From Paucibacter sp. B2R-40 (GTDB lineage Bacteria > Pseudomonadota > Gammaproteobacteria > Burkholderiales > Burkholderiaceae_C), in NCBI RefSeq assembly GCF_025717555.1, contig NZ_JAJIRP010000004.1, forward strand, positions 63,426 to 127,425: a stretch of DNA of 64,000 nt. The letters are read 5' to 3'. Position numbers and translations under genes: made by a program. The notes below the pieces were generated by a model. That model saw only the letters and a list, made by a program, of their open reading frames with translations. It was not told the origin of the DNA and did not search any database. Within the stretch, counting starts at the first letter, position 1; every line of letters begins with the position of its first letter. This document shows positions 36,253-57,910 of this stretch, one piece after another.

Positions 36253-36783
36253 TCAGGCGCAGCGCTTGCTCAAGCTCGCTTCGATGCTGGCCTGCAGCAA
36301 GTCGCTGCGGGCCTCCAGCCCCAAGCTGCGGCACACAACACGCAAGTCACTGACCTCATAGCGGCGCAGGAATTCGCTTTCGATACGCGTCCGATTGCAG
36401 CTCAGGAATGGTGCCGCGCCCATCAACAAGATCGCGCAGTCCCTCATCTCGTGAATGTCACGGATGTACTCCACCAGGGCCTGCCCGACCAGGCTGCTTT
36501 GGTACTCGGCATTCAGAATCACGGCGACAAAATCTTGGTCCGCGTCCAGCGCTTCCATCAGCGCTTTGGGCGACTCCGCCAGTAGCAGCTGCAGTTCACG
36601 GCCTGCAAATACCTGGCCCTGCATGGCGGTGACCAAGCTGCGGCGTGCAGCCTCGTCCGACTCCAGCACCAGAATGCGCCAAGCCTTCTGTGCTGCAGCC
36701 GCATATGCATAGTTTGCACGGCAGCTTGGAATGCGCGGCACGCTGGCGGCTGGGCCGGTGGCGACAAAATTGCTGTGGTTCAT
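36253..36783 (-). CDS. stand-alone pseudo-receiver protein (phosphoacceptor Asp lost)
   Basis: 176 residues. Residues ~34-125 align by eye with the receiver domains of the kinases and EAL protein encoded nearby: WRILVLESDEAARRSL..FAGRELQLLLAESPKALMEAL..DFVAVILNAEYQSSLVGQALVEYIRDI against [27 protein letters not shown]. The acidic pocket is altered (LESDE) and the phosphoacceptor Asp is Asn91. The conserved Lys region is also gone. It probably signals by binding, not phosphorylation. Start at 36783, with GAGGG 7 nt upstream; 50 bp after the chemoreceptor gene on the same strand. Confidence 0.65.
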   Translation of the reverse strand: MNHSNFVATGPAASVPRIPSCRANYAYAAAAQKAWRILVLESDEAARRSLVTAMQGQVFAGRELQLLLAESPKALMEALDADQDFVAVILNAEYQSSLVGQALVEYIRDIHEMRDCAILLMGAAPFLSCNRTRIESEFLRRYEVSDLRVVCRSLGLEARSDLLQASIEASLSKRCA

Positions 36784-36833
36784 TTCTTTGCCCTCGCTTG
36801 CTTGGGTTTGCTTTGAGTCCTGGGCGGCGGACT

Positions 36834-38543
36834 TCAAAATGCCGCCCAGTTCTGTGTCGCCAGTGCTGCATTCGACACCAGGGGCCGAGCGTTGCGTTGA
36901 CCACTCTGCGCGGGGGCGAAGCTGCGAACGGTGGCGCTGCGGCTTTCTTCCTGCTTGGCGGGCAAAGGCTTGCAGGCCACAGCTTGGGCAAGGTCCGCCT
37001 CCAACTTGAAGGAACCCACCGTCGCGACCAGCCCGGCCGCTTGACTCTGCAGGCTGCCGGCAGCTGCAGCCGACTCTTCCACCAGCGCAGCGTTTTGCTG
37101 GGTGACCTGATCGAGTTGGTTGACCGCCTCATTGATCTGGCCGATGCCGCTGGTTTGCTCGATGGTAGCGGCGCTGATCTCGGCAATCAGGTCGTTGACA
37201 CGGCCCACTTGGGTCACGATCTCGCCCATGGTGCTGCCGGCCGAGGCCACCAGCTTGGTGCCAGTCTCCACCTTGCTGACACTGGCGCCGATCAAGGCCT
37301 TGATCTCTTTGGCCGAAGTGGCCGAGCGTTGCGCCAGGGCCCGCACCTCGGCGGCCACGACCGCAAAGCCGCGCCCTTGCTCGCCGGCCCGGGCCGCTTC
37401 GACGGCCGCATTCAGCGCCAGGATATTGGTCTGGAAGGAAATCGAATCCATCACGCCGATGATCTCGACGATCTGCTGCGAGCTGGCATTGATGTCTTCC
37501 ATGGTACGCACCACATCACCGATCACCGCGCCGCCTTTTTGGGCCACGGCGCTGGCCGAGCCGGCGATCTGGGCGGCTTGCCGTGCGGTATCGGCGTTAT
37601 TACGCACGGTCGCGGTCAGTTGCTCCATCGAGGCTGCGGTTTCTTCCAAATTGGCAGCCTGCTCTTCGGTGCGCTGCGAGAGATCAAAGTTGCCACCGGC
37701 GATTTGCGCCGAAGCGGTGGCGATCGATTCGGCACCATTGCGAACATCACCGACCACCCGCAGCAGGTTCTCATTCATGGTCTTCATCGCCTGCAAAAGT
37801 TGCGCAGTTTCATCCTTGCCGCTGACCTCGATCTTGGCGCTCAAGTCGCCCGCGGCCACCGTCTGCGCCACCTGCACCGCACGCTGTATCGGTTGCACGA
37901 TGCTGCGGCTGATCAACCAACCCAGCAATGCCGCCAGGCCAAGTGCCACCGCGGTCAAACCCATCATGGCGCGGTCCAAGAAGGCAGCATCTGCAAATGC
38001 ACTTGCTGCATCGGCGGCGGTCTCGGTCTCCTGGAAGGCAAGCAGTTCATCCATCCGGTCCTGCCATTGTTTGGTGGCCGGCGAAGCCGTCTTGAGCAAC
38101 AAGTCACGCGCCTCGGCATCATGATTCTCACGCGCCAGCGCTTGGACCTGGCTATTGAGTGGGCGAGCCACTGCGGCGGCCTCGCGCACTTTGGTTTGAA
38201 GGGCCTGCTCTTGCGCGCTGGCCGGCATTTTTTCCATCTCGGCCAAGGCTTGGTCGTACTTGGCCCGGGCTGCATCGATCTTTTTGACTTCGCCCTCAAT
38301 CGAACTCTTGTCGTCCAACAGAATCATCGAGCGCGTCACCCGGGAGACGATATGCACCGACTCCGACATATCGTTCACCAAACTCAGGCCACGCATATTG
38401 TCCTCAACGATCTCGTGGATGGCGGCCTCAGACCGGTTGTTGCTGTAAATGCCGGCAGCAGCCACGACTGCGATCAGCGTACCCATCAGGCCAAAGCCCA
38501 GGGTCAGCCGGTTTGCGATGCTCAGATTGCTCAATGCTTTCAT
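36834..38543 (-). CDS. methyl-accepting chemotaxis protein (4HB sensor)
   Basis: 569 residues. TM1 (about 12-30), a ~150-residue helical periplasmic domain of four-helix-bundle type, TM2 (about 190-210), a HAMP domain (SIVQPIQRAVQVAQTVAAGDLSAKI) and a long signalling coiled coil whose tip is [37 protein letters not shown]-like. Methylation segments EEQAANLEETAASMEQLTATV are present. No C-terminal CheR-docking pentapeptide is visible. GGAG lies 6 nt before the ATG. The gene opposite (MerR-receiver fusion) is transcribed divergently from a repeat-rich 250-bp gap. Confidence 0.93.
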   Translation of the reverse strand: MKALSNLSIANRLTLGFGLMGTLIAVVAAAGIYSNNRSEAAIHEIVEDNMRGLSLVNDMSESVHIVSRVTRSMILLDDKSSIEGEVKKIDAARAKYDQALAEMEKMPASAQEQALQTKVREAAAVARPLNSQVQALARENHDAEARDLLLKTASPATKQWQDRMDELLAFQETETAADAASAFADAAFLDRAMMGLTAVALGLAALLGWLISRSIVQPIQRAVQVAQTVAAGDLSAKIEVSGKDETAQLLQAMKTMNENLLRVVGDVRNGAESIATASAQIAGGNFDLSQRTEEQAANLEETAASMEQLTATVRNNADTARQAAQIAGSASAVAQKGGAVIGDVVRTMEDINASSQQIVEIIGVMDSISFQTNILALNAAVEAARAGEQGRGFAVVAAEVRALAQRSATSAKEIKALIGASVSKVETGTKLVASAGSTMGEIVTQVGRVNDLIAEISAATIEQTSGIGQINEAVNQLDQVTQQNAALVEESAAAAGSLQSQAAGLVATVGSFKLEADLAQAVACKPLPAKQEESRSATVRSFAPAQSGQRNARPLVSNAALATQNWAAF

Positions 38544-38632
38544 GATGTGCTCCAGTGTCCGTTGCTGCCGCCTGCGCGGCTGAGGTTGATGTGGGTCTTG
38601 GGCTTCGCAGGTCTTGCGAATGGAGCAACTCT

Positions 38633-38686
38633 AAATCACTCAAATCATTCATTCAAGTTAAATCATTCAAATCATTCAAAATAATC
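38633..38686. repeat. 9-bp tandem array AAATCATTC (six units)
   Basis: Six consecutive 9-mers, AAATCACTC, AAATCATTC, ATTCAAGTT, AAATCATTC, AAATCATTC, AAAATAATC, in the AT-rich gap between the chemoreceptor and the MerR-receiver gene. The period is close to one helical turn, as in iterons or clustered operator sites. Confidence 0.7.
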
Positions 38687-38762
38687 CCAATCGAGAAAAC
38701 GAGATCGATAGATCAATCAAATCGGTCTTTACACTCAAATCGAGCTAAAATTTTGAACACTA

Positions 38763-38789: not shown

Positions 38790-38796
38790 CGAACAA

Positions 38797-39411
38797 ATGA
38801 GCGAGCGCGCCGCGTCCTACACCACCATCGAGGCGGCCAAGCTCTTGGGGATTTCGCCGGCCAGCGTGCAACGCTGGGTTGATGCGGGGCACCTGAAAGC
38901 CTGGAAGACCCTGGGTGGGCATCGCCGGATTGATGCCGACAGCGTCAGCACGCTCTTGGCCGCCCAGGAGGCAGAAATTCCCTCGGCTCTTGCTGATCAG
39001 GCGGCGAATCAAGCCGCCAAACAGGGCGATTCGGCCCAAGCGCTCAGTCTGCTGCTGGTGGACGATGACGACATCGCCCGCGAGTTGCTGGAAATGCAGG
39101 TGCGCCTGCTGCTGCCCCGGGCCCATCTGCTGCTGGCCGAGAATGGCTTTCAGGCCTTGATGATGGCCGGCCGCAGCGCCCCCGATGTGGTGATCACCGA
39201 TATGGTGATGCCGCATATGAACGGCATCGAGATGATCCGGCAGTTGCGCGCAAGCCCCAAGCCGCCGCTGATCATTGCGGTGTCCAGCCAGTCGCGCGAA
39301 AACCTGGCCCGCCTGGGCGGGCTGCCGGACGAGGTGCTGCTGCTGGCCAAGCCGGTCGAGCAGGCTTTGCTGGCCGGCGCATTGGACAGCTTCCAGAGGG
39401 ACCGTGGCTGA
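38797..39411 (+). CDS. MerR/excisionase-type HTH fused to a receiver domain
   Basis: 204 residues. Residues 8-55 are a MerR-type helix-turn-helix (YTTIEAAKLLGISPASVQRWVDAGHLKAWKTLGGHRRI). After an Ala/Gln-rich linker, residues 83-200 form a receiver with acidic pocket VDDDD, phosphoacceptor Asp135 (ITDMVMPHMNG), the Ser-Ser switch near 163 and Lys185 (LAKPVE). DNA binding N-terminal to a receiver is the reverse of the usual order. It lies beside the big hybrid kinase (convergent, 7 bp apart) and is probably one of its phosphotransfer targets. Likely binds the neighbouring 9-bp arrays. Confidence 0.85.
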   Translation: MSERAASYTTIEAAKLLGISPASVQRWVDAGHLKAWKTLGGHRRIDADSVSTLLAAQEAEIPSALADQAANQAAKQGDSAQALSLLLVDDDDIARELLEMQVRLLLPRAHLLLAENGFQALMMAGRSAPDVVITDMVMPHMNGIEMIRQLRASPKPPLIIAVSSQSRENLARLGGLPDEVLLLAKPVEQALLAGALDSFQRDRG

Positions 39412-39418
39412 GCGGCCT

Positions 39419-42058
39419 TCAGCGACCCGCGCAGGCCACGCGCAAAGCGGCCTGCACCGCGAGCAGTTGCGCCTCGAACTGTTGCAACAAGAAGCGCCAA
39501 TCTGCTGGCCCCTCGCGAGCGGCTTCGCCAAGCTCCTCGGCGATCAAGCTAGCTTCCAACTCCCGCGCCACAGCCGACAAACGCTCGGCGCCGATGATGG
39601 CGGCCGTGGAAATGGCCGTGTGAGCAATGCGCGCGGCATTGGCCAAGTCGCCTGCCTGCATGGCCACCTGAATCTGCTGCGCATCACCCAGTCGGGTGGC
39701 GAGAAATTTGTGCAAGAACTTGTCCAGCAGCTCGCCCCGCCCCTGGCAATGCGCCAGCGCCTTGTCCAGGTCCAGCACCGCCAAGCCGACCCGCTGCGTC
39801 AGCGCCTCCTCGGCTCGCTGGGCTTGCGAAGCCTGCGTAGGCGCGGCCGGCAACCACTTGGCCAAGGCCGTGAACAGCTCCTGTGCCAACACCGGTTTGC
39901 CGACGTAGTCATTCATGCCGGCCGCCGCACAACGCGCGCGGTCGCCGCTCATCACCTGAGCCGTCATGGCGATCACAGGCAGGTCCGCAAGGCTGGCGTC
40001 TTGCCTGATCAGGCGGGTCGCCTGCAAGCCATCCATCACCGGCATCTGCACATCCATCAGCACCACATCAAAGCGCTGCTGGCGCAGCAGTCGCAGCGCC
40101 TCCTCGCCATTGCCGGCCGTCTGCACCTGCATGCCGGCCAATTCCTGCAGCAACTCGCAGGCCAGCATCTGGTTCATGTCGTTGTCCTCCACCAGCAGCA
40201 CATGGCGCCCACGCAGCGCGGCGAGCAGGCCCGCCTCCTGCGGGTCAGGCGCCAAACGCTCGGCGGCCGCCTCATGCACCGCAGCTCTGTCTGGCCTGGG
40301 GCCAATGGCTTGGGCCATGGCCTCGCGCAAGGACCGCTCAGACACCGGTTTGGCCAAGCAAGCCGCCAACTGCAGGCGCTCAAGCGAGGGCTGCAAGGCC
40401 TGGGCGTCAAAGGCGGTCACCAGGATGATCTGGTGCGGCTGCACCAAGCCCAAGGCCTGCATGCGTTCGGCCGCTTGCAGCCCGTCCATATCGGGCATGC
40501 GCCAGTCCAGCAGCAAGAGGTCAAACGGCGTGCCGGACAACTGCGCCATTTGCAGCGCGGCAATGCCGGCTCGTGCGCTGTCGGCCAGCACCGGCTGCAG
40601 GCCCAAGTTTTCAAGCCTGTGTTGCAAGATGTCACGCGAATAGATGCTGTCGTCGATCACCAGCACGCGCAGCCCGGCCAGGCCCGCATCGGCAAGCTCG
40701 CTCGGAGCCGGCTCGGCGCAGCCGCCCAGCTGGACATCGAAGCTGAATTCGCTGCCCCGGCCCAGTTCGCTTTGCACGCTGAAGCTGCCGCCCATCAACT
40801 CGACCAGCTGCTTGCAGATGGCCAGGCCAAGGCCAGTGCCGCCAAACTTTCGGGTGATCGAGTTGTCGGCCTGCTGAAAAGGCTGGAACAGCGTCGCCAG
40901 CTGAGCCTGACTCATGCCTATGCCTTGATCGCGCACGCGCAGACGCAGTCTGAGTGCTTGCGCATCGGCCAGTTCGGGCGCATCCAAGCGCTCCACCAGC
41001 ACCACGATCTCGCCGCTGTCGCTGAATTTGAGCGCATTGCCGCACAGATTGATCAGCACCTGAGCGAGGCGCAGCGCATCGCCGCTCACCCGCTGCGGCA
41101 CGCCCGGAGCGCAATCAAACAGCAACTCGAGGCCTTTTTCTTGCGCCCGCAGACCGATCACGGCGGCAACGCGGTCGAACATCTCCTGCAAGGAAAACTC
41201 GGCCGTCTCCAGCTGCAAATGGCCGGCCTCGATCTTGGAGAAATCGAGGATGTCATTGATGATGGTCAGCAGCGCATCGGCGGCCAGCTTGGTGGTGGCC
41301 AGATAGCGCCGCTGCTTGGTCGCAGCGCTGACTGCATCACGGCTGCCCGCTTCAAGGCTTCGCAAGGCCAGTTCGGTCATGCCGATGATGGCATTCATCG
41401 GCGTGCGGATTTCATGGCTCATATTGGCCAAAAACTCGCTTTTGGCGCGCGTGGCCGCCTGTGCAGCATCGCGCGCCAAGGCCAGCTCGGCGGTGCGTGC
41501 CTGCACTCTTCGCTCCAAGTCGGCGTTCATTTGCGCCAAGGCCTTGGCACTTTCGACGGCCTGCTGCTCAGCCTGCATACAACGAATAATCTGCTGATAG
41601 GCTCGCAGCGCCGCCGACAAACTGATGATCAGCCGCTCCTGACCCAACTCCGTTTTGCTGCGGTAGTCGTTGATATCAAAGCTGTTGAAAACATTGACCT
41701 CGGGCGCGTAGCCGGGCTGTCCGGTGCGCAAGATGATGCGGCAAGCCGCCATGCCGCAATGCTCACGGATATGCGCGACCAGCTCCAAGCCGGCGCGCTC
41801 GCTTTCCATCACCACATCCAGCAGGATCATCGCAAAGTCACGGTCGGTCGCCAGCAACTCCCGGGTGGCCTGGGCCGAGTAGGTATGAAACAAGCTCAAT
41901 GGCCGGCCCAGAATCACCGCCTGACGCAAGGCATAACGGGTCGCGCTATGGACCTCCTCGTCATCGTCGACCACCAATACCCGCCAGGGCGGCGGCGCAG
42001 CGGATGTCGCGCCAGCAAAGGGCTCATCGCTGAAAAAGATATTGGCTTGCTGGCTCAT
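39419..42058 (-). CDS. hybrid histidine kinase (REC-HisKA-HATPase-REC-REC-HPt)
   Basis: 879 residues, no membrane segment. N-terminal receiver ([31 protein letters not shown]), coiled coil, HisKA ([24 protein letters not shown]), HATPase ([28 protein letters not shown]), two further receivers ([40 protein letters not shown]) and a C-terminal HPt-like helix bundle with [17 protein letters not shown], where the usual Lys-Gly after the His is replaced. The ATG at 42058 (MSQQ) parallels the MSQ start of the DUF3369 regulator at 53137; a longer start at 42181 has a better ribosome-binding site and is possible. Confidence 0.9.
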
Positions 42059-42198
42059 CGAATCTGTGTGCGTGCAATGGCGGCAGCCGGCAGTGTGCCC
42101 CAATTCCAAGCCGGCAGGCGTGAAGACACTGACATGGCGGCTTTCGAGTTCCAGCGCCCAGATCCGTTTCAACATCATCACGCCTCATTGCCCACCCT

Positions 42199-42753
42199 AT
42201 GAACCGTTTCGCGGCCACCCCCTTCGCGATCCTGCTGGCACTGAGTCTGCTGCTCACGGCAGGGACAGGTGGTGCTCAAACGACCGCACAGCGCATGAGC
42301 CCAGAGACCGCCAGGGCCAACTATGTCGCAGCTTTTGGCAGTTATGTCGAATGGCCGGCAAGCGCTTTCGCTGACGCCGAGGCGCCTTTCGTGATCGGCG
42401 TGATGGATGACGAAGTGACGTTGCGCTTGCTCGAGGCGGGCTTTAAGACCCGCCGTTTGCAGGGCCGGGCGGTGCAGGTGCGCCGCGTCGACAACATCCT
42501 GCAGGCCATCCATGTGCACCTGCTCTACACGCCCGAGGGCAATGCTGCACCACTGCGTCCGCTGAACGGCCTGCCCATCCTGACGATAGGCTCCGGCACC
42601 GGCTTCCTGGACCGCGGCGGCATCATCGGTTTGCTGATGCGGGAGGAGCAACTGCGCTTCGAGCTCAACGCCAAAGCGGCCGAACGCTCGGGCCTGAAGG
42701 TTTCGGCCAAATTGCAGCAACTCGCACTCAGAACCTACGAGGAGAGCCGCTGA
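42199..42753 (+). CDS. YfiR family periplasmic protein (DUF4154)
   Basis: 184 residues with a signal peptide (FAATPFAILLALSLLLTAGTGGAQ) and the DUF4154 fold: NYVAAFGSYVEWPASAF, FVIGVMDDE, LHLLYTPEG-like and PILTIGSGTGFLDRGGIIGLLMREEQLRFELN with AAERSGLKVSAKLQQLA. In Pseudomonas, YfiR sits in the periplasm and represses the membrane diguanylate cyclase YfiN. Here its stop overlaps the ATG of a membrane histidine kinase (TGATG), so it probably controls that kinase. No YfiN-like GGDEF membrane protein or YfiB lies next to it. Confidence 0.88.
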   Translation: MNRFAATPFAILLALSLLLTAGTGGAQTTAQRMSPETARANYVAAFGSYVEWPASAFADAEAPFVIGVMDDEVTLRLLEAGFKTRRLQGRAVQVRRVDNILQAIHVHLLYTPEGNAAPLRPLNGLPILTIGSGTGFLDRGGIIGLLMREEQLRFELNAKAAERSGLKVSAKLQQLALRTYEESR

Positions 42754-44318
42754 TGGGTTGGAGATTTTCCTCACTCGGCCTGCAGCGCAAGCTGCAGCTG
42801 GCGCTGTTGCTGGGCACGCTGCTGGCGCTGTTGCTGGCCGGCTTGGCGGTGCTGAGTTATGAAACCAGCACATTCCGGCCGCGAGTGGCGGCGCAACTGA
42901 CCGCCGTGGCCAAGGTGATGGCCGACATCAACCAGGCCGCGCTGGATTTCGACGATGCCAAACAGGCGCAAGACAACCTCGCTTTGCTGCGCCTGTATGA
43001 AGGCATGACCGCCGGCGCGCTCTACCGCGCCGACGGCTCCTTGTTTGCCGAATGGGCCGACAGCGGCAAGCCCAGCAGCCCGAGCAGGCCCCAGTCCACC
43101 GGCATAGACTTTCAGGCCAATCAAGCCAGTCTGAGCCTGGCCGTGATGCGCGATGGACGGGAGCTCGGCCATGTCTGGATCCGCGTGCAACTGCCCCCGC
43201 TGCTGCAGCGCCTGCCGCAATACGGCATCATGTTTGGCGCGCTGGCACTGGCCGTGCTGGTGCTGGGGGCGGTCTTGCTATGGGCCGGGCGGCGCCTGGT
43301 CAGCTTACCAATGGAGCAACTCAGCGCGGCAGCAAGCGAGGTTGGCCGTACCGGGGATTTTTCGCTGCGTGTGGCCAAAACCAGTGGCGACGAAATCGGC
43401 CAACTGACGGATGAGTTCAACCGCATGCTGGGGGTGGTCGGTGAGCGCGATAGCGCACTGCAGCTGGCCAATGACCAACTGGAGCAGCGCGTGCAAGAGC
43501 GCAGCCAGGAACTGGAGCAGGCGATGACGCTGCTGATGCAAAACGAAAAGCTGGCCGCCCTGGGCAACGTGGTGGCCGGCGTCGCGCATGAGCTGAACAC
43601 GCCAATAGGCAATGCCTTGCTGGCCGCCACCAGCCTGAGCAAAAGCAGTCACACCATGCGCGAGCAAATCACCGGCAACTCGCTCAGCCGGCGCGGGCTG
43701 GATGATTTCATGGCCTCGGTCGAAGAGGGCTCAGGGATTGTGACGCGCTCGCTGGAACGCGCGGCCGGTCTGGTGCGCAGCTTCAAGTCCGTCGCGGTCA
43801 ATGAGACCAGCGAGGCGCGCATGGACTTTGACTTGCGCCATGTGTTGGACGACTGCATGGCCTTGCTGGCACCAGGCCTGAAGCACCGCCCCATCGAGGT
43901 GAGTTTGGAGTGCGCCGCCGGCATACGCTGCAACAGCTATCCCGGTGCGTTGACGCAAATCGTCAGCAATCTGGTCGAGAACGCTGCCCGCCACGGTCTG
44001 GAGCCGATTGGCGGTGGGCGCATCGAGGTGCAGGTCCTCGAATCAATCGACACCGGCAAGCCGGACAGCGGCGAGAGCTGGCTGACGCTGAGCGTGCGTG
44101 ATCATGGCGCAGGCATCCCGCCCGAACACCTGCACCGCATCTTCGAGCCCTTCTTCACCACAAGGCTGGGCCAAGGCGGCTCAGGCCTGGGCCTGCATGT
44201 GGTGCACAGCCTGGCAAAAATCCCCTTGGGCGGCTCGATTGAAGTGCGCAGCCAGGTCGGCCAAGGCACCACCTTTGAGCTGCGCTTCCCGCGCCGCGCG
44301 CCGATAGGTCAGCTCTGA
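42753..44318 (+). CDS. membrane sensor histidine kinase (CHASE8-like sensor)
   Basis: 521 residues. TM1 (about 9-30), a ~120-residue extracytoplasmic domain with the pattern of CHASE8 sensors (ALDFDDAKQAQDNLALLRLYEGMTAGALYRADGSLFAEW), TM2 (about 155-178), HAMP (SLPMEQLSAAASEVGRTGDFSLRV), a coiled coil, HisKA with GVAHELNTPIGNAL and HATPase with LVENAARHG and GQGGSGLGLHVVHSL. It has no receiver, so it must signal to a separate one. It is translationally coupled to the YfiR-family gene, whose product could bind its periplasmic domain. Confidence 0.9.
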   Translation: MGWRFSSLGLQRKLQLALLLGTLLALLLAGLAVLSYETSTFRPRVAAQLTAVAKVMADINQAALDFDDAKQAQDNLALLRLYEGMTAGALYRADGSLFAEWADSGKPSSPSRPQSTGIDFQANQASLSLAVMRDGRELGHVWIRVQLPPLLQRLPQYGIMFGALALAVLVLGAVLLWAGRRLVSLPMEQLSAAASEVGRTGDFSLRVAKTSGDEIGQLTDEFNRMLGVVGERDSALQLANDQLEQRVQERSQELEQAMTLLMQNEKLAALGNVVAGVAHELNTPIGNALLAATSLSKSSHTMREQITGNSLSRRGLDDFMASVEEGSGIVTRSLERAAGLVRSFKSVAVNETSEARMDFDLRHVLDDCMALLAPGLKHRPIEVSLECAAGIRCNSYPGALTQIVSNLVENAARHGLEPIGGGRIEVQVLESIDTGKPDSGESWLTLSVRDHGAGIPPEHLHRIFEPFFTTRLGQGGSGLGLHVVHSLAKIPLGGSIEVRSQVGQGTTFELRFPRRAPIGQL

Positions 44319-44324
44319 CCGAGC

Positions 44325-46547: not shown

Positions 46548-46669
46548 TGGCTTAAGCTCCACAACAAGAGGCGAATCCACGCGGCGAATCAGATGTTATG
46601 CCAATCCTTGCGCCACTCGAAGCGTTGAAAAAGGGCCTCAATACAAATGTAATTTCAGCCTTTTCGGCC

Positions 46670-46698: not shown

Positions 46699-46739
46699 AG
46701 CCGCCATTCATTCATGGCTGCGGCCAAAGGCATCGCCCG

Positions 46740-48827: not shown

Positions 48828-48832
48828 ACGCT

Positions 48833-50164
48833 ATGAAATCAGATTGCAAACTCAAGCCTGGGGTCGCGGCCATTTTTTTGAGCGCTGCCGGCCTGCTGAG
48901 CAGTTGTGGCGGCGGTGGAGTCGATGGCAGCTCGGCCCGGGCCGAGGGTGCGACCGGTAGCCTGCGCCCAGGCATTCAGGGTGAGCTGATGTTGGGCTTC
49001 ATGCTGCCCTACAGCGGCACAACGTCCGCAAGCTACGACGTTCGAGAGCGCTATTTGAGGCTGGCCGTGGCCGAAATCAATGCGGGCGGAGGCGTCAATG
49101 GCAAGACCCTCGGCTATATGGTGCGCGACACCAAGGCCGGCACGGCTGAAGGTGCCGCTGCCGTCGCCGGCGAATACCTTGATTTGGTCAACGCAGGCTG
49201 CTTTGGCATCATCGGGCCGCTGACGAGTGCGGAAGTCCTGCCGCTGGTGCCGACCGTTGTCAAAACCGGCGTGCCCATCATCACCACCGGTGCCAGCTCT
49301 TCGGCCCTCAGCAGCCTGGACCGGGGAAGTCCGGTGATGGTTTACCGCATCATCGCGTCCGACGCCTTTTCGGGGCAAGTGGCGGCACAGATCGCCCGCA
49401 AAGAGGGTAAGCAAACGGTAGCCCTGATCTATTCCGACGACACCTTCGGTCGCTCAATCAGCGCCTCCTTTGGAAATTCGTTCGTCGCCCGAGGCGGCCA
49501 GGTTATCGCCAAATCGGCTTACCCCGTGGGCAAAACATCAGGCTTTGCCGATGTGGTCGCAAAGGCTTTTGCGAACGGCAATCCGGATGCGATCTATGTC
49601 GGCGGTCTGTCAGCCGAGATTGTGGGCTTGAGCAAGGACTTGGCACTCAACAACAACCGCCCGCGCCCTGCGCTGTACGGTGTCAGCTCACTCAGCAATG
49701 CCCAATTCGTTTCAACGGCAGACGCATCCGTGATTGAGAACATGCTGATCATGGGCGCCGACAGCAACCCCAAGCGACCGGAGTATCTAGCCTTTGTTGA
49801 TCTCTACACCAAAGCCTATGGTGTTGCACCTGAAACGGGCGTTAGCCCATCCGGCTACGACGCGGCCTATCTGTTCGCGCTCGCTGCACAAGCAGGCGGC
49901 AGTACGGCAGGGGCCTCGATGGCGCAATGGCTTGGCCCGGTGTCGCGGGCCGACACGGCCACGCCCTTGAAAATCATCCCCGGTCAGTTTTCAGTCGCCC
50001 GCAATTCGCCCGGGCAAGACTGGGACTACGACGGCGCCAAATCTGGCATCAATTGGGATAGCACCGGTGATGTCAGCACCGGCTCCTTCATCGTATACCG
50101 GGTCTTGCGCAACTCAGCCGGGCAACTGATCTTGACGCAGGTGGATCAAGTCACGCCGGATTGA
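48833..50164 (+). CDS. branched-chain amino-acid-type ABC binding lipoprotein (Peripla_BP_6)
   Basis: 443 residues. Lipobox LLSSC with Cys25, then a Gly-rich spacer and a type I periplasmic binding fold: GELMLGFMLPYSGTTSASYDVRERYLRLAVAEINAGGGVNGKTL, YLDLVNAGCFGIIGPLTSAEVLPLVP, VALIYSDDTFGRSI, DAIYVGGLSAEIVGL, SGYDAAYLFALAAQ. LivJ/AmiC-like. No permease or ATPase genes are near. The 5-bp link to the TonB receptor suggests it takes a ligand from that receptor and either feeds a distant transporter or reports to a sensor. A longer in-frame start near 48536 lies within the receptor gene and is not used. Confidence 0.88.
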   Translation: MKSDCKLKPGVAAIFLSAAGLLSSCGGGGVDGSSARAEGATGSLRPGIQGELMLGFMLPYSGTTSASYDVRERYLRLAVAEINAGGGVNGKTLGYMVRDTKAGTAEGAAAVAGEYLDLVNAGCFGIIGPLTSAEVLPLVPTVVKTGVPIITTGASSSALSSLDRGSPVMVYRIIASDAFSGQVAAQIARKEGKQTVALIYSDDTFGRSISASFGNSFVARGGQVIAKSAYPVGKTSGFADVVAKAFANGNPDAIYVGGLSAEIVGLSKDLALNNNRPRPALYGVSSLSNAQFVSTADASVIENMLIMGADSNPKRPEYLAFVDLYTKAYGVAPETGVSPSGYDAAYLFALAAQAGGSTAGASMAQWLGPVSRADTATPLKIIPGQFSVARNSPGQDWDYDGAKSGINWDSTGDVSTGSFIVYRVLRNSAGQLILTQVDQVTPD

Positions 50165-50263: not shown

Positions 50264-51808
50264 TCAGCCGCGCAACTTGAACGCAGCCACCGACGCCACC
50301 AACTGCGCGGCCTGATCGCGCAGGCTTTGCGCGGCCGCCGCCGATTCCTCCACCAGCGCGGCGTTTTGCTGCGTCATCTTGTCCAGCTCATTGACCGCTT
50401 GCCCAATCTCGCCCAAGGTCAGCGCCTGCGCTGAAGTAGAGCTGGAAATCTCGGCCACGATCTGCGTCACGCGCTGCACGCTTTGCACCACTTCGCCGAT
50501 GGTGTCGCCGGTGTCTTGCACCAGTTTGGCGCCGCTCTCCACCTTGTCCACCGAGGTGGAGATCAGGGTCTTGATCTCGCGCGCCGCCTGTGCGCTGCGT
50601 TGCGCCAGCGAGCGCACTTCGCTGGCCACCACCGCGAAGCCGCGGCCTTGCTCACCGGCGCGCGCTGCCTCCACCGCAGCATTCAGGGCCAAGATATTGG
50701 TCTGGAAGGCGATACTGTCGATCACGCCGATGATGTCGGAGATTTTGTTCGACGACTGTTGAATCTCATTCATCGTCGCCACCACTCTGCTGACCATCGC
50801 GCCGCCCCGGTCCGCCACAGCGGAAGCCGTCTGCGCCAAGCTGTCCGCTTGGCGCGCCGCTTCCGCGTTGCTGCGCACGCCCTCGCTGAGCTGCTGCATC
50901 GCCGCACCGGTTTGCTCCAGGCTGCTGGCGGCATGCTCGGTGCGGTTGGAAAGGTCCATATTGCCGGTGGCGATTTCGGCCGAGGCAATGCGCACCTGCT
51001 CGGCGGCGCTGCGCACGCCCGAAATCGTGCGGGACAACTGCTGCTGCATCTGCTGCAGCGACTGCGTCAAGCTGGCCATCTCGTCCCGGCCTTCAATCGG
51101 CACTTCGTGCGTCAGATCGCCGTCGGCGATGCTCTCGGACAGCACCTGCGCACGCTCGACCGGGGCCGTCACGGACCGCGTGATGGCCAGCGCAATGCCG
51201 ATGCCAATCAGCGTCGCGGTACCCGACAGCAGCAATACCCAACTCACCACAGAATTGGCCTCATCGCTGGCTTGCTGGCGCGCATCCTGCAGGCGCTCGC
51301 GCTTGTATTCGGCATAGTCATTGATCGCGTCGGTATAGGTATCCATGGCGGGAATCAACTCAGCCACCACCCGCGCACGAATGTCTTGCCCCTCTTTTTT
51401 AGCCTTGGCCAAGTCGTCGCGCAGGGCTTGGTACTGCTTGCGGGTCATGGCAATTTTGTCGCTCAAACGCTCGCTTTGCGGCGTCTTGCTGAGCTGCGTT
51501 AATTCCTCTTGAACCTTGTCCACCCTTGCGCTGGTCTCTTTGGACTTGCGGGTGAATGCCTTGACGAATGCCTCGTCGTCAATTGCCAGCGTGGCGATGC
51601 GACGCTGAATATTTGACTCGGACATGCCTGCCCATTGGCGCGCCAGATCCAGCGCGTGCGAGTCCACATCGACAAGGTGCTCGATGCTGGCATTGAGTTG
51701 TTTGACCCGCAACACGCCTATCAGCGAACCCACCAATAGCAAACCCATCACGACGGCAAAGCCCGCCAATACTCGGGTTCGCAGCTTCATGTTTTGGATA
51801 GTTTTCAT
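50264..51808 (-). CDS. methyl-accepting chemotaxis protein
   Basis: 514 residues. TM1 (about 9-30), periplasmic four-helix-bundle (IEHLVDVDSHALDLARQWAGMSESNIQRRIATLAIDDEAFVKAF), TM2 near 190-212, HAMP, and a signalling domain with the hairpin [48 protein letters not shown]. The last segment reads [32 protein letters not shown]. An upstream in-frame start at 51931 would add 41 atypical residues; ATG 51808 has AAGGA 7 nt upstream. It is followed by the convergent binding-lipoprotein gene. Confidence 0.93.
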   Translation of the reverse strand: MKTIQNMKLRTRVLAGFAVVMGLLLVGSLIGVLRVKQLNASIEHLVDVDSHALDLARQWAGMSESNIQRRIATLAIDDEAFVKAFTRKSKETSARVDKVQEELTQLSKTPQSERLSDKIAMTRKQYQALRDDLAKAKKEGQDIRARVVAELIPAMDTYTDAINDYAEYKRERLQDARQQASDEANSVVSWVLLLSGTATLIGIGIALAITRSVTAPVERAQVLSESIADGDLTHEVPIEGRDEMASLTQSLQQMQQQLSRTISGVRSAAEQVRIASAEIATGNMDLSNRTEHAASSLEQTGAAMQQLSEGVRSNAEAARQADSLAQTASAVADRGGAMVSRVVATMNEIQQSSNKISDIIGVIDSIAFQTNILALNAAVEAARAGEQGRGFAVVASEVRSLAQRSAQAAREIKTLISTSVDKVESGAKLVQDTGDTIGEVVQSVQRVTQIVAEISSSTSAQALTLGEIGQAVNELDKMTQQNAALVEESAAAAQSLRDQAAQLVASVAAFKLRG

Positions 51809-51979
51809 GATGATGTCCTTGGCCTGTGCTTGGGCTTGCATGGCTGTCTGCACCGCGCGTCCTGAGCGTGAGCCAGCAGCGGGATTGTGGCGCTTTACTG
51901 GATCTCGGGCTCCACCGAGCATGGCCGGCAAAGCCTTTCACTTCTTGCATACCCGCGCGTGGCGGCAAAAAATCGACAA

Positions 51980-53137
51980 TCAGGGCCGCAGCGCGCCCAT
52001 CGCCAGTTGCAGGCCCCGCGCCAAGCCGTCCGCGTCATAGGAGCGGCCACTTTGCGCAGACAAGCTCGGCAGCAGGGTGGCCAGCGCATCACCCAAGGCC
52101 GACTTTTGCCCCGCTTGCAAGGCATCAAACAATGCCGCCACCGCACGCGTAAATTCAGCTTGCGCCTGCTGCTGCTTTTCAAAGTTATGCAGATTGTCAA
52201 ACGCCCAGGTGATCTTGCTGCAGAACAACTCCAGCAGGCTGCGCTGGGCGTCCACCAGCGGCCAGGGCGCTGACACCAGAATGACAAACTCATGGCCCTC
52301 GGGCGTGGCCACAAACAACACATCCAGCGGGTGCTCAAAATGGCTCTTGTGATCGACAAAGGCGCGCGCCGTGGCCGCAGCGATCGGCGCCGGCACCTGG
52401 CTCATTTGGTTGATGCCGGCATAGCTGCCGGTGGCCGCCATCACCACCGGCGCGATTTCGCCATGCACGCCGGTCTGGCGCAAGCAAATCACACCGTCGG
52501 CGCCGACATCCAGGATCGCACTGATCTGATTCAGCACACCGGAGGCAAATTCGCGCAGCGAGCGCACGTGATAGAGGTCGCTTGAGGCGTCCAGAATGCG
52601 CTCAAGCCCGCGCCGGTTGCGCTCTATCATGACCAGGCTCTCGTAGGTGCGCAGCGAGGCGATCACCGTGGTGAAGAGCTTTTGCTGGCTCATATCGGTC
52701 TTGCACTTGTAGTCGTTGATGTCGTACTGCACGATCACATCACTCTCGGGCGCCTGGCCCGGCTGACCGGTGCGCAGGACGATGCGCGACAAATGATTGC
52801 CCAAATCTTCCCGCACCTGACGCGCCATGCGCAGGCCGGCGTCGTCGGTCTCCATCATCACGTCGAGCAGGATCAGCGCAATATCGGGCTCCCGCCGCAT
52901 CGTCATCACGCCTTCCAATGCCGAGTAGGCCGACAACACCTGCAGCTTGCGACCTTTGTAGCTGACAGACATCAGGGCCAGCTTGGTGGACGCGTGCACA
53001 TCCGGCTCGTCATCAACAATCAAGACCCGCCAGGGTGCAGCGTCCAGCGGATTACTCTTGCTCGCCGCGCCCGCCTCTGGTGGTTCATCCAACAACCACA
53101 TTTCATCGGCCGCGTTCGGTTCATTGACTTGACTCAT
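51980..53137 (-). CDS. response regulator with REC-DUF3369 and no output domain
   Basis: 385 residues. The receiver (WRVLIVDDEPDVHASTK, LILLDVMMETDDAGLRM, DINDYKCKTDM) is followed by DUF3369 (about 145-330) with the RNRRGLERILDASSDLYHVRSLREFASGVLNQISAILDVGADGVICLR pattern. In relatives DUF3369 precedes HD-GYP or EAL domains, but here the protein ends in a short helical tail with no enzyme. It may signal by protein contact. It lies 31 bp downstream of a histidine kinase on the same strand, probably its partner. Start at ATG 53137 (a GTG is two codons upstream). Confidence 0.88.
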   Translation of the reverse strand: MSQVNEPNAADEMWLLDEPPEAGAASKSNPLDAAPWRVLIVDDEPDVHASTKLALMSVSYKGRKLQVLSAYSALEGVMTMRREPDIALILLDVMMETDDAGLRMARQVREDLGNHLSRIVLRTGQPGQAPESDVIVQYDINDYKCKTDMSQQKLFTTVIASLRTYESLVMIERNRRGLERILDASSDLYHVRSLREFASGVLNQISAILDVGADGVICLRQTGVHGEIAPVVMAATGSYAGINQMSQVPAPIAAATARAFVDHKSHFEHPLDVLFVATPEGHEFVILVSAPWPLVDAQRSLLELFCSKITWAFDNLHNFEKQQQAQAEFTRAVAALFDALQAGQKSALGDALATLLPSLSAQSGRSYDADGLARGLQLAMGALRP

Positions 53138-53168
53138 GGGCACGTCTCTTCTCTGCTGAAGTGGGGCC

Positions 53169-54629
53169 TTAGCCCATGCTGCCGAACTTGGGCGCCACCC
53201 TGGGCAGGCTGATCAAGAACTTGGTGCCCTGGCCAGGCTGGCTGAGCAAGCGCACCTGGCCGCCCAGGGTGTTGGTGATCAGGTTGTAGACAATGTTCAA
53301 CCCCAAGCCGCTACCGCCTGCATGGCGCTGGGTGGTGAAGAAAGGGTCGAAGACCCGACCCAGATGCTCGGGCGCAATGCCCTGGCCATTGTCGGCAAAC
53401 TCGATGTCCAGCTGCTCGCCGCTCTGGCTGATGTCTATCGTGACCAAGCCAGCCGCAGCCCCATCAAAAGCATGACGCTGAGCATTCAGCAGCAAATTGG
53501 TCAGAACCTGCGAGAAGGCACCGGGGTAGCTGTCCATCTCCAGGCCTTCGGGGCAATGCAACTCAATCTGCATGGGGCTGCGCTTGAGTTCGGCGCGCAA
53601 GCTCAACAGCAACTCCTCGATATAGGCGCGCACACGGAAGCTGCGCCGGGCTTCACTGGTCTGGTCCACCGCGACTTGTTTGAAGCTACGCACCAGGCTG
53701 GCTACTTTGTGGGCATTGGAGGTCAAGAGTGCACTGCATTCCATGGCCGTCTGCACATAATCATGCAAGACTTGCTTGCGCAAGCTGCCTCCCGCCATTT
53801 GACTGGCCAGGTCCTTGGTGGCCGCCTCCAAGGTGGTGGCGCAGGTCAGCGACACCCCCACAGGCGTATTGATCTCATGCGCCACGCCCGCGACCAAGCC
53901 ACCCAGGCTGGCCATGCGTTCAGACTGCAAAAGCAACTCCGACGTCGCCGCCAATTGCGTGAACACCTGCTCGGTGGGGCGCAACACCGCGCGGCGAATC
54001 ATCACGAAAAAGGTGGCCATGCCGCCCACAAGCCCGAGCGCCAAACCACCAAGGGCGACACGAACTGCCTGTTGCGCGCTTTGCTGGGCCTCGTGATCGG
54101 CCAACTTGGCGCGTTCGGCAGCGCGATCAGAGATCGCATCCAAGGCGTCCAGCAAGGGCCGATCGGCGCCGCGCACCGAAGCATCCGCGCGCTGAGGGTG
54201 GAATCCATCGGCCTCAAATTGCTGCCGTGCCTGTGCGTAGGCCCGGCCCAGAGCTTGGTGCGCTTGCAAGGCGGCATCAATCGCCGAGATATCCGAAGCC
54301 GGCTGCAAGCTCGACTCGCGCAAGGCCAGCAGCCCCTTTTGCACGGCCTGTTCGCGCGCCTGCACCACCTCCCAGAGTAGTGCCGCATCGGCGCTGCTAT
54401 TGCTGCGCAGCAAGAGGTTTTTCCACTCTTGCACCTGCCATTTGAATTCGAGCGCCACGTCCAGCATGCGCTCGGCCCGCTCATGCTCGGGCAAAGCCTC
54501 GCCGCTGTATTGCTCCAAGGCTCGCCAAAGTCCATGGCCGCCGTAGATGGTGAAGCCGGCGATCATGGCGAAAGCCAGGGCTGCGATCAGCAGCAGATCA
54601 CGAAAAATTCGTTTGGCGCTTTGGCTCAT
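53169..54629 (-). CDS. membrane sensor histidine kinase
   Basis: 486 residues. TM1 (about 12-32), a helical extracytoplasmic region of ~155 residues with a 4HB-like pattern (ALPEHERAERMLDVALEFKWQVQEWKNLLLRSN), TM2 (about 192-212), then directly the HisKA (MASLGGLVAGVAHEINTPVGVSLTCATTL) and HATPase (LTNLLLNAQRHAF, AGGSGLGLNIVYNLI). No HAMP with canonical spacing is obvious and there is no receiver. Its periplasmic start resembles chemoreceptor sensors nearby. Paired with the REC-DUF3369 protein downstream; 42 bp after a chemoreceptor gene. Confidence 0.9.
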   Translation of the reverse strand: MSQSAKRIFRDLLLIAALAFAMIAGFTIYGGHGLWRALEQYSGEALPEHERAERMLDVALEFKWQVQEWKNLLLRSNSSADAALLWEVVQAREQAVQKGLLALRESSLQPASDISAIDAALQAHQALGRAYAQARQQFEADGFHPQRADASVRGADRPLLDALDAISDRAAERAKLADHEAQQSAQQAVRVALGGLALGLVGGMATFFVMIRRAVLRPTEQVFTQLAATSELLLQSERMASLGGLVAGVAHEINTPVGVSLTCATTLEAATKDLASQMAGGSLRKQVLHDYVQTAMECSALLTSNAHKVASLVRSFKQVAVDQTSEARRSFRVRAYIEELLLSLRAELKRSPMQIELHCPEGLEMDSYPGAFSQVLTNLLLNAQRHAFDGAAAGLVTIDISQSGEQLDIEFADNGQGIAPEHLGRVFDPFFTTQRHAGGSGLGLNIVYNLITNTLGGQVRLLSQPGQGTKFLISLPRVAPKFGSMG

Positions 54630-54671: not shown

Positions 54672-56222
54672 CTAGAGCTTGAACACCGCCACCGAGCGGG
54701 CCAACTCATCCGCCTGTAACTGCAAGCTCTGCGCCGCAGCGGCAGACTGCTCCACCAGCGCCGCGTTTTGCTGCGTCATGGTGTCGAGTTGCGTGATGGC
54801 CATGCCGATCTGCGAAATGCCGCTGCTTTGCTCACCGGTGGCATGGCTGATCTCAGCCACTATGGAACCCACCCGGCCGATCGAGGCGATCACTTCTTGC
54901 ATGGTGTCGCCGGCCCGGCCCACCAAGGCCGCGCCCGCCTCAACGCTCTCGCCGCTGGCGGTAATCAGACCTTTGATCTCTTTGGCCGCCTCGGCCGAAC
55001 GCTGTGCCAGGCTGCGCACCTCGCTGGCCACCACCGCAAAGCCGCGCCCTTGCTCGCCGGCACGCGCCGCTTCCACGGCCGCATTCAGCGCCAGGATATT
55101 GGTTTGAAAGGCGATGCCGTCGATCACCGAGATGATGTCGCTGATCTTGTTGGACGAGGTACTGATGCGGCTCATCGTTGCAACCACTTCACCCACCACT
55201 TCACCGCCGCGCTGCGCCACCTGCGCGGCATCCACCGCCAGCTGATTCGCCTGCCGCGCTGAATCGGCGTTATGCCTGACGCTGGCGGTTAGCTCCTCCA
55301 TCGCCGAGGCGGTTTCCTCCAGATTGGAAGCGGCCTGCTCAGTGCGGTGGCTGAGATCATGCCCACCCGCCGCGACCTGGGCGGAAGCGGTGGCGATACT
55401 GTCGGTCGCATTACGTACATTGCTCACTACATCGCGCAGCGAACTCTGCATGGCCTTGACGCCACGCATCAAGTCGCCGGTTTCGCATTTGCCGTGCGCG
55501 ACGATGTCCTCACTCAGGTCCTGCGCGGCGATGCGCTCGGCCGACTGCTGCACTTCGTCCAAAGGCTGCAATATCGAGCGCAGATTGAAGAAGGTGTAAA
55601 CACCAATCATCACCATGCCGCCAATCAAGACAAAGATGAGGCTGCGCCGAACCGTGACCTCGTTAGCAGCGATGGTCTCCACCTCGTGCACCGCATCTTT
55701 GTCGATGGAGGCCACCATTTCGTCCAGCTTGGCCTCCATGGGCCGAATCGCCTTCTTTGCGGCGCTCAGGGCCTTGTTCGCGCTGGCCGGGTCGGCAAAG
55801 GCCTTTTCCCCCAGCTTGACCGTAAAGCTGTCCATCTCATTCTTGTAGGCCTTCATGCCGGCGACGATGTCGCGCAACTCATCCTGCACGTCTTTGGGCA
55901 CATCCAGCTTATTCAGCCCGTCCAGCGCCTTGTCCAGCGCCGCATAACTTCTAACCCAATCGGCGCGATATTTGTCGACCGCTGCCGCGTCGTCGAGGTT
56001 GAGCGCCATGTCTTTTTCATAACGGCGCAAATTACCGGCCTCGGCCCGGATCTTGGAGGTGAAGTTCAGCGACTGGTTGTCGTTGTCCACAAAATGCACG
56101 AAGGAATACTTGGCTTGGTTCAGGCTGTAGAGGCCGGTGAGTCCGACGATCAAAAGCATCATCATCGAAATGCCGGCCAGGGCATACAAACGGGCGCGTA
56201 CAGTGAAATCTTGCAGATTCAT
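54672..56222 (-). CDS. methyl-accepting chemotaxis protein, tandem paralog A
   Basis: 516 residues. [22 protein letters not shown]1, a ~160-residue helical sensor ([38 protein letters not shown]), TM2 (about 188-208), HAMP and a full signalling coiled coil ending [13 protein letters not shown]. It is a close paralog of the next gene upstream, with nearly identical cytoplasmic part and a diverged sensor. AGGAG lies 8 nt before ATG 56222. Sits between that paralog and the kinase/REC-DUF3369 pair, all on the minus strand. Confidence 0.94.
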
Positions 56223-56299
56223 GAACCACACTCCTGGGCAGAAGAACTCCAGCGACCAATATATTTGATTCGCCTATCGCACGGAAGAGGCTTGAAAAA

Positions 56300-56317
56300 A
56301 TAACTTTGGAAAGTTAT
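56300..56317. promoter_or_regulatory. dyad ATAACTTTGGAAAGTTAT upstream of paralog A
   Basis: Perfect 8-bp inverted repeat with a 2-bp centre, 78-95 bp before the ATG of chemoreceptor paralog A and after the stop of paralog B. There is no T-tract, so it is more likely an operator than a terminator. Confidence 0.45.
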
Positions 56318-56359
56318 GTGCTCCAGCCACAAGGCAAGACCTGACCCTACGCACTGAGT

Positions 56360-57910
56360 TCAGAGCTTGAACACCGCCACCGATTTGGCCAAATCCTCGG
56401 CTTGCACCTGCAGGCTCTGCGCGGCGGCAGCGGACTGTTCGACCAAGGCGGCGTTCTGTTGCGTCATGGTGTCGAGTTGGGTGATGGCTTGACCGATTTG
56501 CGCAATGCCGGTGCTTTGTTCGCCCGTAGCATGGCTGATTTCGGCGACGATGGAGCTGACGCGCCCGATCGAGCCAATCACTTCTTGCATGGTTTGCCCG
56601 GCGCGCTCCACCAGCATGGCGCCGTTGTCCACCGCCTCGCCGCTGGCGGTGATCAAACCCTTGATCTCTTTGGCCGCCTCGGCCGAGCGCTGCGCCAGGC
56701 TGCGCACCTCGCTGGCCACCACCGCAAAGCCGCGCCCTTGCTCGCCGGCACGGGCCGCTTCCACAGCGGCGTTCAGCGCCAGGATATTGGTCTGAAACGC
56801 AATCCCGTCAATGGTAGAAATGATGTCGCTGATCTTGTGCGAGGACGCGCTGATGCGCTTCATGGTGTCGACCACCTCTCCCACCACCGTGCCGCCGCGC
56901 TCGGCCACTTGGGCAGCGTCCACCGCTAACTGATTGGCTTGACGGGCCGAGTCGGCATTGTGTTTGACGCTGGCCGTCAACTCTTCCATCGCGGAGGCCG
57001 TCTCTTCAAGGTTTGACGCCGCTTGTTCGGTGCGGTGGCTGAGATCTTGCCCGCCGGCGGCCACCTCGGCCGAGGCAGTGGCGATGCTGTCGGTGGCATT
57101 GCGAACATTGCCGACCACATCACGCAAAGAGGCCTGCATCGCCTGCACGCCGCGCATCAGGTCACTGGTTTCGCTTTGACCCCGCGCCTGGATACTCTCG
57201 CTCAAGTCCTGGCCGGCAATGCGCTCGGCCGACTGCTGGACTAGCCGCAAGGGCTGCAAAATCGAGTGAATATTGAAGAAGGTGAAGGCGCCAATGAAGA
57301 GCATCGCCAGCAATGACACCGCAATCAAAGCAACGCGCGTCCTGTCTTGCAAGGCCAGCGTCGCGCTCACCGCCGCAACCCCGGCCTTGTCCAGCGATTC
57401 GACCATTTCCCTGAGCTTTTGCTCGATCGGGCGAACCGCCTTCTTTGCGCCCTCAAGCGCCTTGTTGGCCGCGTCCGGGTCGGCAAAGGATTTGGCGCCA
57501 AGTTGCTTCATGAAGCTCTCCATCTCGGACTTGTAGGCGCCCAACAAGCCGTCGATGTCGGTATCGAGACGGCGCGTTTCGGGTTCCAGGTCCAGCTTGG
57601 CCAGTTCATGCAAGCCCTTGGTCGTAGCGGCATAGTTGGCGGCCCAGTCTTCACGGTATTTTTCGATCGCTTTTTCGTCTGCGAGATTGATCACCATGTC
57701 TTTCTCAAAGCGACGCAGATTGCCAACGCTGGCGCGAATGCCAGAGATCAAATTGAGCGATGCGTTGTCATCGTCGGCAAAGTGAACGAAGGAGGCTCTG
57801 GCCTGATTCAGGCTGTACAGACCCGTGCCGGCTACGGCAGCCAGCATCAGCATGGCGAAGATCGCTAAGGCATACAAGCGGGCACGTACCGTGAAATCCT
57901 GCAAATTCAT
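56360..57910 (-). CDS. methyl-accepting chemotaxis protein, tandem paralog B
   Basis: 516 residues. Same layout as paralog [21 protein letters not shown], a helical sensor ([38 protein letters not shown]), TM2, HAMP ([22 protein letters not shown]) and signalling domain to the same VAVFKL end. The cytoplasmic halves are almost the same, while the sensors differ at many positions, the pattern of duplication followed by change of ligand range or sensitivity. The 5' ends share the same CCCAGGAGTG ribosome-binding context. No pentapeptide tether. Confidence 0.94.

Follow-up and report, generated by a model that had tools for sequence, protein, structure and literature searches.

A possible YfiR-controlled two-component system among signalling modules accreted at one chromosomal site in Paucibacter sp. 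B2R-40

YfiR is known as the repressor of one diguanylate cyclase, and in the YfiBNR (TpbB) system of Pseudomonas aeruginosa this periplasmic protein adjoins a CHASE8/PAS-HAMP-GGDEF enzyme of the inner membrane and is accompanied by the lipoprotein YfiB. Here we describe a signalling island in a window of 64,000 nucleotides from Paucibacter sp. B2R-40 (contig NZ_JAJIRP010000004.1, positions 63,426 to 127,425 of the forward strand; the window is the whole stretch analysed, and its own numbering is used below). In this island a YfiR-like protein is encoded next to a CHASE8-HAMP-histidine kinase. The island spans 36253-57919 and holds 14 genes, numbered T1 to T14 in order along the window. In the best reading of it, YfiBNR-like periplasmic control has been rewired into a two-component system. 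More fully, two signalling modules would have accreted at one chromosomal site, the first of which, module A, would be a YfiR-controlled two-component system ending in a phosphodiesterase of cyclic dimeric guanosine monophosphate (c-di-GMP); we give this account about an even chance of being right. Module A comprises T5 to T9, and T4 and T3 are taken to form a branch of it:

38797..39411, plus strand: T3, response regulator with an HTH_17/MerR-like domain and a REC domain (Pfam)
39419..42181, minus strand: T4, hybrid kinase, REC(DUF3369-type)-HisKA-HATPase-REC-REC-Hpt, probably soluble (Pfam)
42199..42753, plus strand: T5, YfiR-like periplasmic protein (DUF4154) without cysteine (PF13689, 1.2e-30)
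42753..44318, plus strand: T6, CHASE8-HAMP-histidine kinase of the HELNTP type, overlapping T5 by one base (Pfam)
44325..46580, minus strand: T7, REC-DUF3369-GGDEF-EAL protein with a degenerate GGDEF (SGDVF), predicted phosphodiesterase (Pfam, alignment)
46740..48827, plus strand: T8, TonB-dependent receptor with plug and barrel (Pfam)
48830..50164, plus strand: T9, Peripla_BP_6 lipoprotein (Pfam, run on the longer frame 48536-50164)

A crude hydropathy scan found no transmembrane segment in T4, and Pfam did not match an STN domain in T8. Read from the sequence, the lipobox cysteine of T9 is residue 26 of the frame starting at 48830, with an ATG at 48833. T5 has an N-terminal hydrophobic segment and scores 106.9 bits against PF13689 (cut-off 24.9); its match to solved YfiR structures is weak (E=0.0019).

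The island and YfiBNR both place a YfiR-family periplasmic protein beside a CHASE8-HAMP protein of the inner membrane, with c-di-GMP as the predicted end point. They differ in the partner, which in Pseudomonas is itself the diguanylate cyclase but here is a histidine kinase, and in the end enzyme, which here is a separate phosphodiesterase with its own receiver. Where YfiBNR has the YfiB lipoprotein, the island has a TonB receptor and a periplasmic binding lipoprotein; an OmpA/Pal-like YfiB was sought as an OmpA-type Pfam match and not found among the 14 genes, the rest of the genome not having been searched. Crystals of P. aeruginosa YfiR holding tryptophan and vitamin B6 are reported in PMC4887326, and an input by small molecules is accordingly plausible for T5.

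A closer counterpart is found in NCBIfam, where families exist for a TOL_0244 TonB receptor, a TOL_0243 YfiR-like protein and a YfiR-associated kinase (NF053590, NF053591 and NF053592), so that the TonB-YfiR-kinase neighbourhood is already known to curators. The same three protein types share one neighbourhood here (42199-48827). The island differs in that its proteins fall below the cut-offs, narrowly for T5 (NF053591, 113.6 against 125 bits) and T6 (NF053592, 188.5 against 194) and by far for T8 (68.3 of 645 bits), and in that T7 sits between the kinase and the receptor. For the DUF3369 proteins the nearest described relative is VCA0210 of V. cholerae, a REC-DUF3369-HD-GYP protein that is an active phosphodiesterase (PMC4212101). 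T7 and T11 share its REC-DUF3369 front, whereas in place of HD-GYP T7 has EAL and T11 no output domain; a REC-DUF3369-HD-GYP gene lies elsewhere in the same genome (C34:366801). In the portions available of PMC8294551 and PMC7232144, CHASE8 is described only together with GGDEF, and literature searches, with most subscription journals outside their scope, found no paper on a YfiR-controlled kinase.

Comparison of the two halves of T6, whose Pfam domains are CHASE8-HAMP-HisKA(weak)-HATPase, points to a composite protein. Its front half is 28-36% identical to CHASE8 kinases of YfiR/TonB loci in an order-level sample of 150 genomes (the best seven outside the genus, within a comparison set of 197 sequences chosen in part by the CHASE8 domain itself). 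Its catalytic half is 25-32% identical to five of those kinases, partly over short stretches, compared with 41-43% over 282-290 residues to kinases adjoining DUF3369 genes (L166, L167, L171, L202) and 39% to a second CHASE8 kinase of its own genome (L066). By these similarities T6 is a two-part protein, in which a YfiR-type front end appears to have been joined to a DUF3369-type catalytic half.

The YfiR-CHASE8 input is found with other outputs elsewhere. Among 20 CHASE8 neighbourhoods compared by BLAST with the window proteins, at least 16 have a TonB-receptor-like gene and at least 10 a YfiR-like gene. Five CHASE8 proteins run through Pfam carry, behind CHASE8-HAMP, GGDEF-EAL (L067), a kinase (L066), a hybrid kinase (L056, L068) or a chemoreceptor (methyl-accepting chemotaxis protein, MCP) domain (L062). 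YfiR and TonB-like genes adjoin these proteins in L056, L062, L066 and L067, and in L068 a TonB-like gene and a YfiR match at C23:81036 lie beside the CHASE8 protein. From these arrangements we tentatively propose, at somewhat less than an even chance, that YfiR-CHASE8 is a portable periplasmic input which evolution has joined to simple and hybrid kinases, to GGDEF-EAL proteins and, in the single genome G099, to a chemoreceptor. For this genus the graft would have been onto a DUF3369-type kinase, turning YfiBNR into a branched phosphorelay that runs from TonB receptor to YfiR to T6, and then to the T7 phosphodiesterase and to transcription through T4/T3.

Two observations were made alongside. 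In G099 (L062, 6252-8844) adjacent genes for YfiR and a CHASE8-HAMP-MCP stand behind a TonB-receptor-like gene (4336-6264), and the pair is possibly a YfiR-gated chemoreceptor. The B2R-40 genome itself has two more TonB receptor/YfiR/CHASE8-kinase sets (L066, 4863-10134; L068, 4405-9401), at least three in total.

The EAL, DDFGTG and AEGVET motifs have roles in EAL phosphodiesterases. In the alignment T7 retains all three, and SGDVF stands in place of GGDEF; T7 is therefore predicted to hydrolyse c-di-GMP without making it. Whether kinases of the T6 or T12 type accompany such proteins was examined in a family-level sample of 150 genomes, own genome included. From 55 regions fetched, three without an anchor (L175, L184, L186) and one with two (L166) gave 53 DUF3369 genes, five of them close to the end of the stretch; L047, an orthologue of T11 with an MCP and without a T6/T12-type kinase within 3 kb, was left out. 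An earlier sequence-only reading of the window, made without database searches, had expected one gene set to recur around REC-DUF3369 genes, and the kinase bears this out, lying within 3 kb in 25 of the 53 against 0 of 40 matched regions shifted along the same genomes; the MCP does so more weakly (9/53 against 1/40), and a T9-like binding protein was counted in seven against one. Fisher tests gave 3e-8, 0.024 and 0.07, respectively, uncorrected for the three features tested. At unrelated EAL loci the corresponding counts were 2/66, 0/66 and 0/66. These loci derive from a named-genome scan with EAL patterns that returned mostly unrelated EAL proteins (the first 12 were read, the other 68 became the control, 66 with an anchor), and the 40 shifted regions were added because that control came from mixed phyla.

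Four of the counted loci (5 anchors) had supplied the seeds of the kinase profile, and with these removed the linkage stands at 20/48 (P=5e-7); BLAST with T6 and T12 alone found 19/53 within three genes. The binding-protein profile was seeded from three of its seven loci, so that count leans high, and its excess over the matched control is not significant. Outside the genus the order REC-DUF3369-GGDEF-EAL, binding lipoprotein, kinase occurs in three loci of the family sample (L166, L167, L202) and also in L073, a Pseudomonadaceae record from beyond that sample, so that T7 and T9 recur as a set with a HELNTP kinase. Together with the kinase counts this supports the pairing of T6 with T7 and of T12 with T11, though it does not amount to proof of phosphotransfer.

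In the pathway we infer, which covers ligand, direction of YfiR control, phosphotransfer and enzyme activity alike, a ligand would enter or be sensed at the outer membrane by T8 and T9, and this would alter the action of periplasmic T5 on the CHASE8 domain of T6, by analogy with YfiR and YfiN. T6 would then phosphorylate the T7 receiver and so change the EAL phosphodiesterase activity of T7 on c-di-GMP. The receiver of T4, a relative of that of T7, should be a second target of T6, and from there the phosphate would be handed on by the T4 Hpt domain to the DNA-binding regulator T3 and thus to transcription. The one-base overlap of T5 and T6 is consistent with this scheme, as is the finding of all five module A genes together in three relatives of the genus (G297, G298 and G304). 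T4 flanks T5-T6 on the side opposite T7 and its receiver falls in one clade with that of T7, and T6 might accordingly act on T4, and thereby T3, only, leaving T7 as a constitutive or differently controlled phosphodiesterase. At the G304 locus, however, module A includes T7, and a T4 homologue was not recognised in the 19 kb stretch around it (L040); we regard an exclusive route through T4 as quite improbable.

Several findings weigh against a YfiR-controlled pathway to T7. T6 and T7 are convergent and thus not one operon, and T7 is placed between T6 and T8. The YfiR-linked NCBIfam families all score below cut-off for T5, T6 and T8. T5 is without the cysteines that Pseudomonas YfiR carries as the disulfides Cys71-Cys110 and Cys145-Cys152 (PMC4887326), and since T5 has none at all, a cysteine-based redox input is not plausible for it. 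The kinase tree, which lacks resolution here, does not group T6 with DUF3369-adjacent kinases. T6-type kinases are common, with 22 own-genome paralogues at 36-45% identity, T12 among them, so that a DUF3369 partner cannot be told from the kinase type alone, and 28 of the 53 DUF3369 genes have no T6/T12-type kinase nearby. Beyond the genus the association of YfiR with DUF3369 was not seen either. In the family sample DUF3369 was matched in 37 genomes and YfiR in 45; both occur in 19 besides our own (18 of other genera and the same-genus G162), and by eye no DUF3369 gene lies within 20 kb of YfiR in any of them (0/18 and 0/1). In the order sample seven other genomes have DUF3369 over cut-off and a CHASE8-kinase match above 100 bits; in none, again by eye, do the DUF3369 and kinase matches lie within 20 kb, the nearest being about 31 kb apart.

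YfiR beside a DUF3369 output is thus particular to this genus among the sampled genomes. An old DUF3369-YfiR pairing is ruled out on these genomes (0/18 and 0/1 in the family, 0/7 in the order). No close T8 homologue was found at E 1e-60 in 273 other genomes of a class sample, with at most four candidates scored per genome.

The remaining genes of the island are as follows:

36253..36837, minus strand: T1, stand-alone pseudo-receiver of 194 amino acids, overlapping T2 by 4 bases
36834..38543, minus strand: T2, chemoreceptor, 4HB-HAMP-MCP, with C-terminus NWAAF (Pfam)
50264..51931, minus strand: T10, chemoreceptor, start codon uncertain (Pfam)
51980..53143, minus strand: T11, output-less REC-DUF3369 protein with a helical tail (Pfam; AlphaFold2 model with mean predicted local distance difference test score, pLDDT, of 86.3)
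53169..54629, minus strand: T12, histidine kinase of the HEINTP type with two transmembrane segments and a chemoreceptor-like sensor region (Pfam)
54672..56231, minus strand: T13, chemoreceptor, likely the ancestral occupant of the site (Pfam)
56360..57919, minus strand: T14, chemoreceptor, tandem paralogue of T13 (Pfam)

The right end lies at 57919 if an upstream GTG is used and at 57910 if ATG. By Pfam and open-frame reading every gene is concerned with signalling or ligand handling: four chemoreceptors, two sensor kinases, one hybrid kinase, two REC-DUF3369 proteins, one degenerate receiver, one HTH-receiver protein, one YfiR, one TonB receptor and one binding lipoprotein. All the domain types named in the sequence-only reading were recovered in place by Pfam and NCBIfam, and its description of a dense signalling cluster stands, with 14 genes where it had counted thirteen. 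Four MCPs fall in 21.7 kb where about 0.12 would be expected, and two of the four DUF3369 genes of the genome are here; given the genome totals (31 MCP matches in 5.61 Mb, four DUF3369 genes), this is a real cluster. The four MCPs are not independent, since T13 and T14 are a tandem pair, 74% identical.

T2 ends in NWAAF and its G298 homologue in GWSQF, which we take to resemble the xWxxF tether of some chemoreceptors; T10, T13 and T14 have no such ending. Adjoining the island, 58208-59269 encodes a putative ice-binding-like adhesive domain (pAdhesive_15) protein with a PEP-CTERM motif, and at 17398-20903 frames matching response-regulator and kinase genes from other loci probably form a further two-component pair.

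All four related receivers of the sequence-only reading were located, as the whole of T1 and the N-termini of T4, T7 and T11 (T4 and T7 65% identical over 133 residues, T7 and T11 45% over 143). Only T7 (2.7e-46) and T11 (2.6e-40) carry DUF3369, both with the phospho-accepting aspartate; T4 has the receiver without DUF3369, and T1, also without it, is phospho-dead. In T1 asparagine replaces the aspartate, and Pfam finds no receiver match beyond one chance hit at E=0.33, so T1 cannot act as a normal receiver. Its AlphaFold2 model has a mean pLDDT of 72.1, and the nearest folds are mostly receivers but weak, with a single match under E 0.001. T1 has an orthologue in G297 (67%). In G298 its place is taken by a longer protein of 781 amino acids, whose receiver is 40% identical to T1 and carries proline at the phospho-aspartate position. 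This G298 gene (L038, 10943-13288) encodes a full-length pseudo-receiver-DUF3369-GGDEF(degenerate)-EAL protein and overlaps the chemoreceptor homologous to T2 by 4 bases.

In a tree of 80 receivers, built on 140 columns (few for that many rows) and with the bootstrap not settled, T4 and T7 stand as a clade of their own (100/98), T1 groups with the protein of G298 (also 100/98, with long branches) and T11 falls in a lineage apart. With its receiver removed, the G298 protein comes out next to T7, as its sister, in a set of 49 proteins (Shimodaira-Hasegawa-like approximate likelihood ratio test, 100). T1, T4 and T7 thus appear to belong to one local duplication family, in keeping with the family expansion suggested earlier. 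These trees and the missing aspartate indicate that a T7-type gene duplicated locally and that one copy lost phosphorylation; that copy was probably then trimmed to the receiver alone in the window and G297, with T1 as the remnant. Relative to G297, the ratio of nonsynonymous to synonymous substitution rates (dN/dS) is 0.34 for T1, the highest among the genes measured and a sign of weaker constraint than in its neighbours (0.09-0.24 for T2-T7 and T9-T14, T8 left out). A pseudogene is ruled out, the frame being open in two species with this dN/dS.

Module B consists of chemoreceptors, the T12 kinase and T11. The sensor region of T12 shares 27% identity over 221 residues (E=4e-13, in a comparison set of 197 sequences) with an MCP encoded next to a REC-DUF3369-GGDEF-EAL gene (L202). 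The T11 model consists of a receiver, a domain whose element order suggests a GAF-like topology and a helical tail; its best Protein Data Bank match, the dual-sensor histidine kinase 6oaq, covers 319 columns with a template modelling score of only 0.45 of the query and a root-mean-square deviation of 7, so that the GAF-like reading of the middle domain is tentative. T12 would signal to T11, which, having no output domain, probably acts by binding a partner.

The history of the site was followed in a genus sample of 18 genomes, with gene calls on the fetched loci made by a simple open-frame rule and hence approximate. Module A is present in at least 4/18, once at another site, and T3/T4 accompany it in three of those four; the figure is a minimum, only G162 and G291 having been placed individually among the REC-DUF3369-GGDEF-EAL genes of other genus members. 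Module B, traced by its output-less REC-DUF3369 protein, has orthologues in 3/18 (G297 90%, G304 74%, G296 59%). G297 has every island gene in the same order, with T8 seen as two pieces (92% and 86%) where the stretch boundary cuts it. It has in addition a TPR-GAF-HD (HD-GYP-like) gene between T9 and T10 (L035, 12316-15036), likely another c-di-GMP enzyme at the site. G298 is without T10-T12, has the 781-residue protein where T1 would be, carries two extra signalling frames between T4 and T5, and its T6 is cut by the stretch boundary. In G304, T13-T12-T11 stand beside an S10 peptidase gene and T5-T6-T7-T8-T9 at a separate locus. The S10 gene was found in 17/18 genomes, and in eight of ten further genomes whose flanks were compared (G299, G300, G301, G162, G302, G303, G307, G308; not G306 or G309) a T13 homologue, 59-88% identical, lies near it. 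The S10 flank ranges from a single MCP (six genomes) through MCP and kinase (G303, which adds T12), MCP, kinase and REC-DUF3369 (G304) and two MCPs (G302, T13 and T10 between a FimV-like gene and S10) to the larger set of G298 and the full set of G297. This series reads as a stepwise accretion of modules around one ancestral chemoreceptor near the S10 gene. A single horizontally acquired circuit is ruled out by the same build-up at one site, and the G+C of the island is inside the window's own range. Co-occurrence in relatives, which the sequence-only reading had set as a check, was thus seen within the genus, as the whole island in G297 and module A alone at the other G304 locus; outside it no sampled genome had a DUF3369 match within 20 kb of a YfiR match.

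That gene sets at the S10 flank vary, with modules gained and lost independently, might also mean accretion without common function, in which only T5/T6, T12/T11 and T4/T3 cooperate and T7 is driven by another kinase. Set against this are the recurrence of module A at the separate G304 locus in the same order and orientations and the low dN/dS of the island genes other than T1 and T8, and we consider it unlikely, though far from negligible. The earlier proposal of one integrated circuit, whose ligand entrance feeds chemoreceptors and c-di-GMP alike, draws on the MCPs near DUF3369 genes and on the overlaps of T2 with T1 and of its G298 homologue with the full-length EAL protein. That enrichment is modest, however (P=0.024, one of three features tested), modules A and B are found apart in relatives, and Pfam recognised no CheA, CheW or CheY-type gene among the 14. 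The island instead splits into independent modules, a link from chemoreceptors to c-di-GMP is not shown by these data, and a single circuit seems to us improbable.

On the reading we prefer, of a YfiR-controlled two-component system beside a separate chemoreceptor module, the TonB receptor would offer a place to seek the YfiR ligand. The natural receiver duplicates, intact in T7 and T4 and dead in T1, suit tests of phosphorelay specificity and of pseudo-receiver evolution. If YfiR gates a kinase here, and elsewhere a chemoreceptor, through CHASE8, one periplasmic logic would serve c-di-GMP, two-component and chemotaxis outputs.

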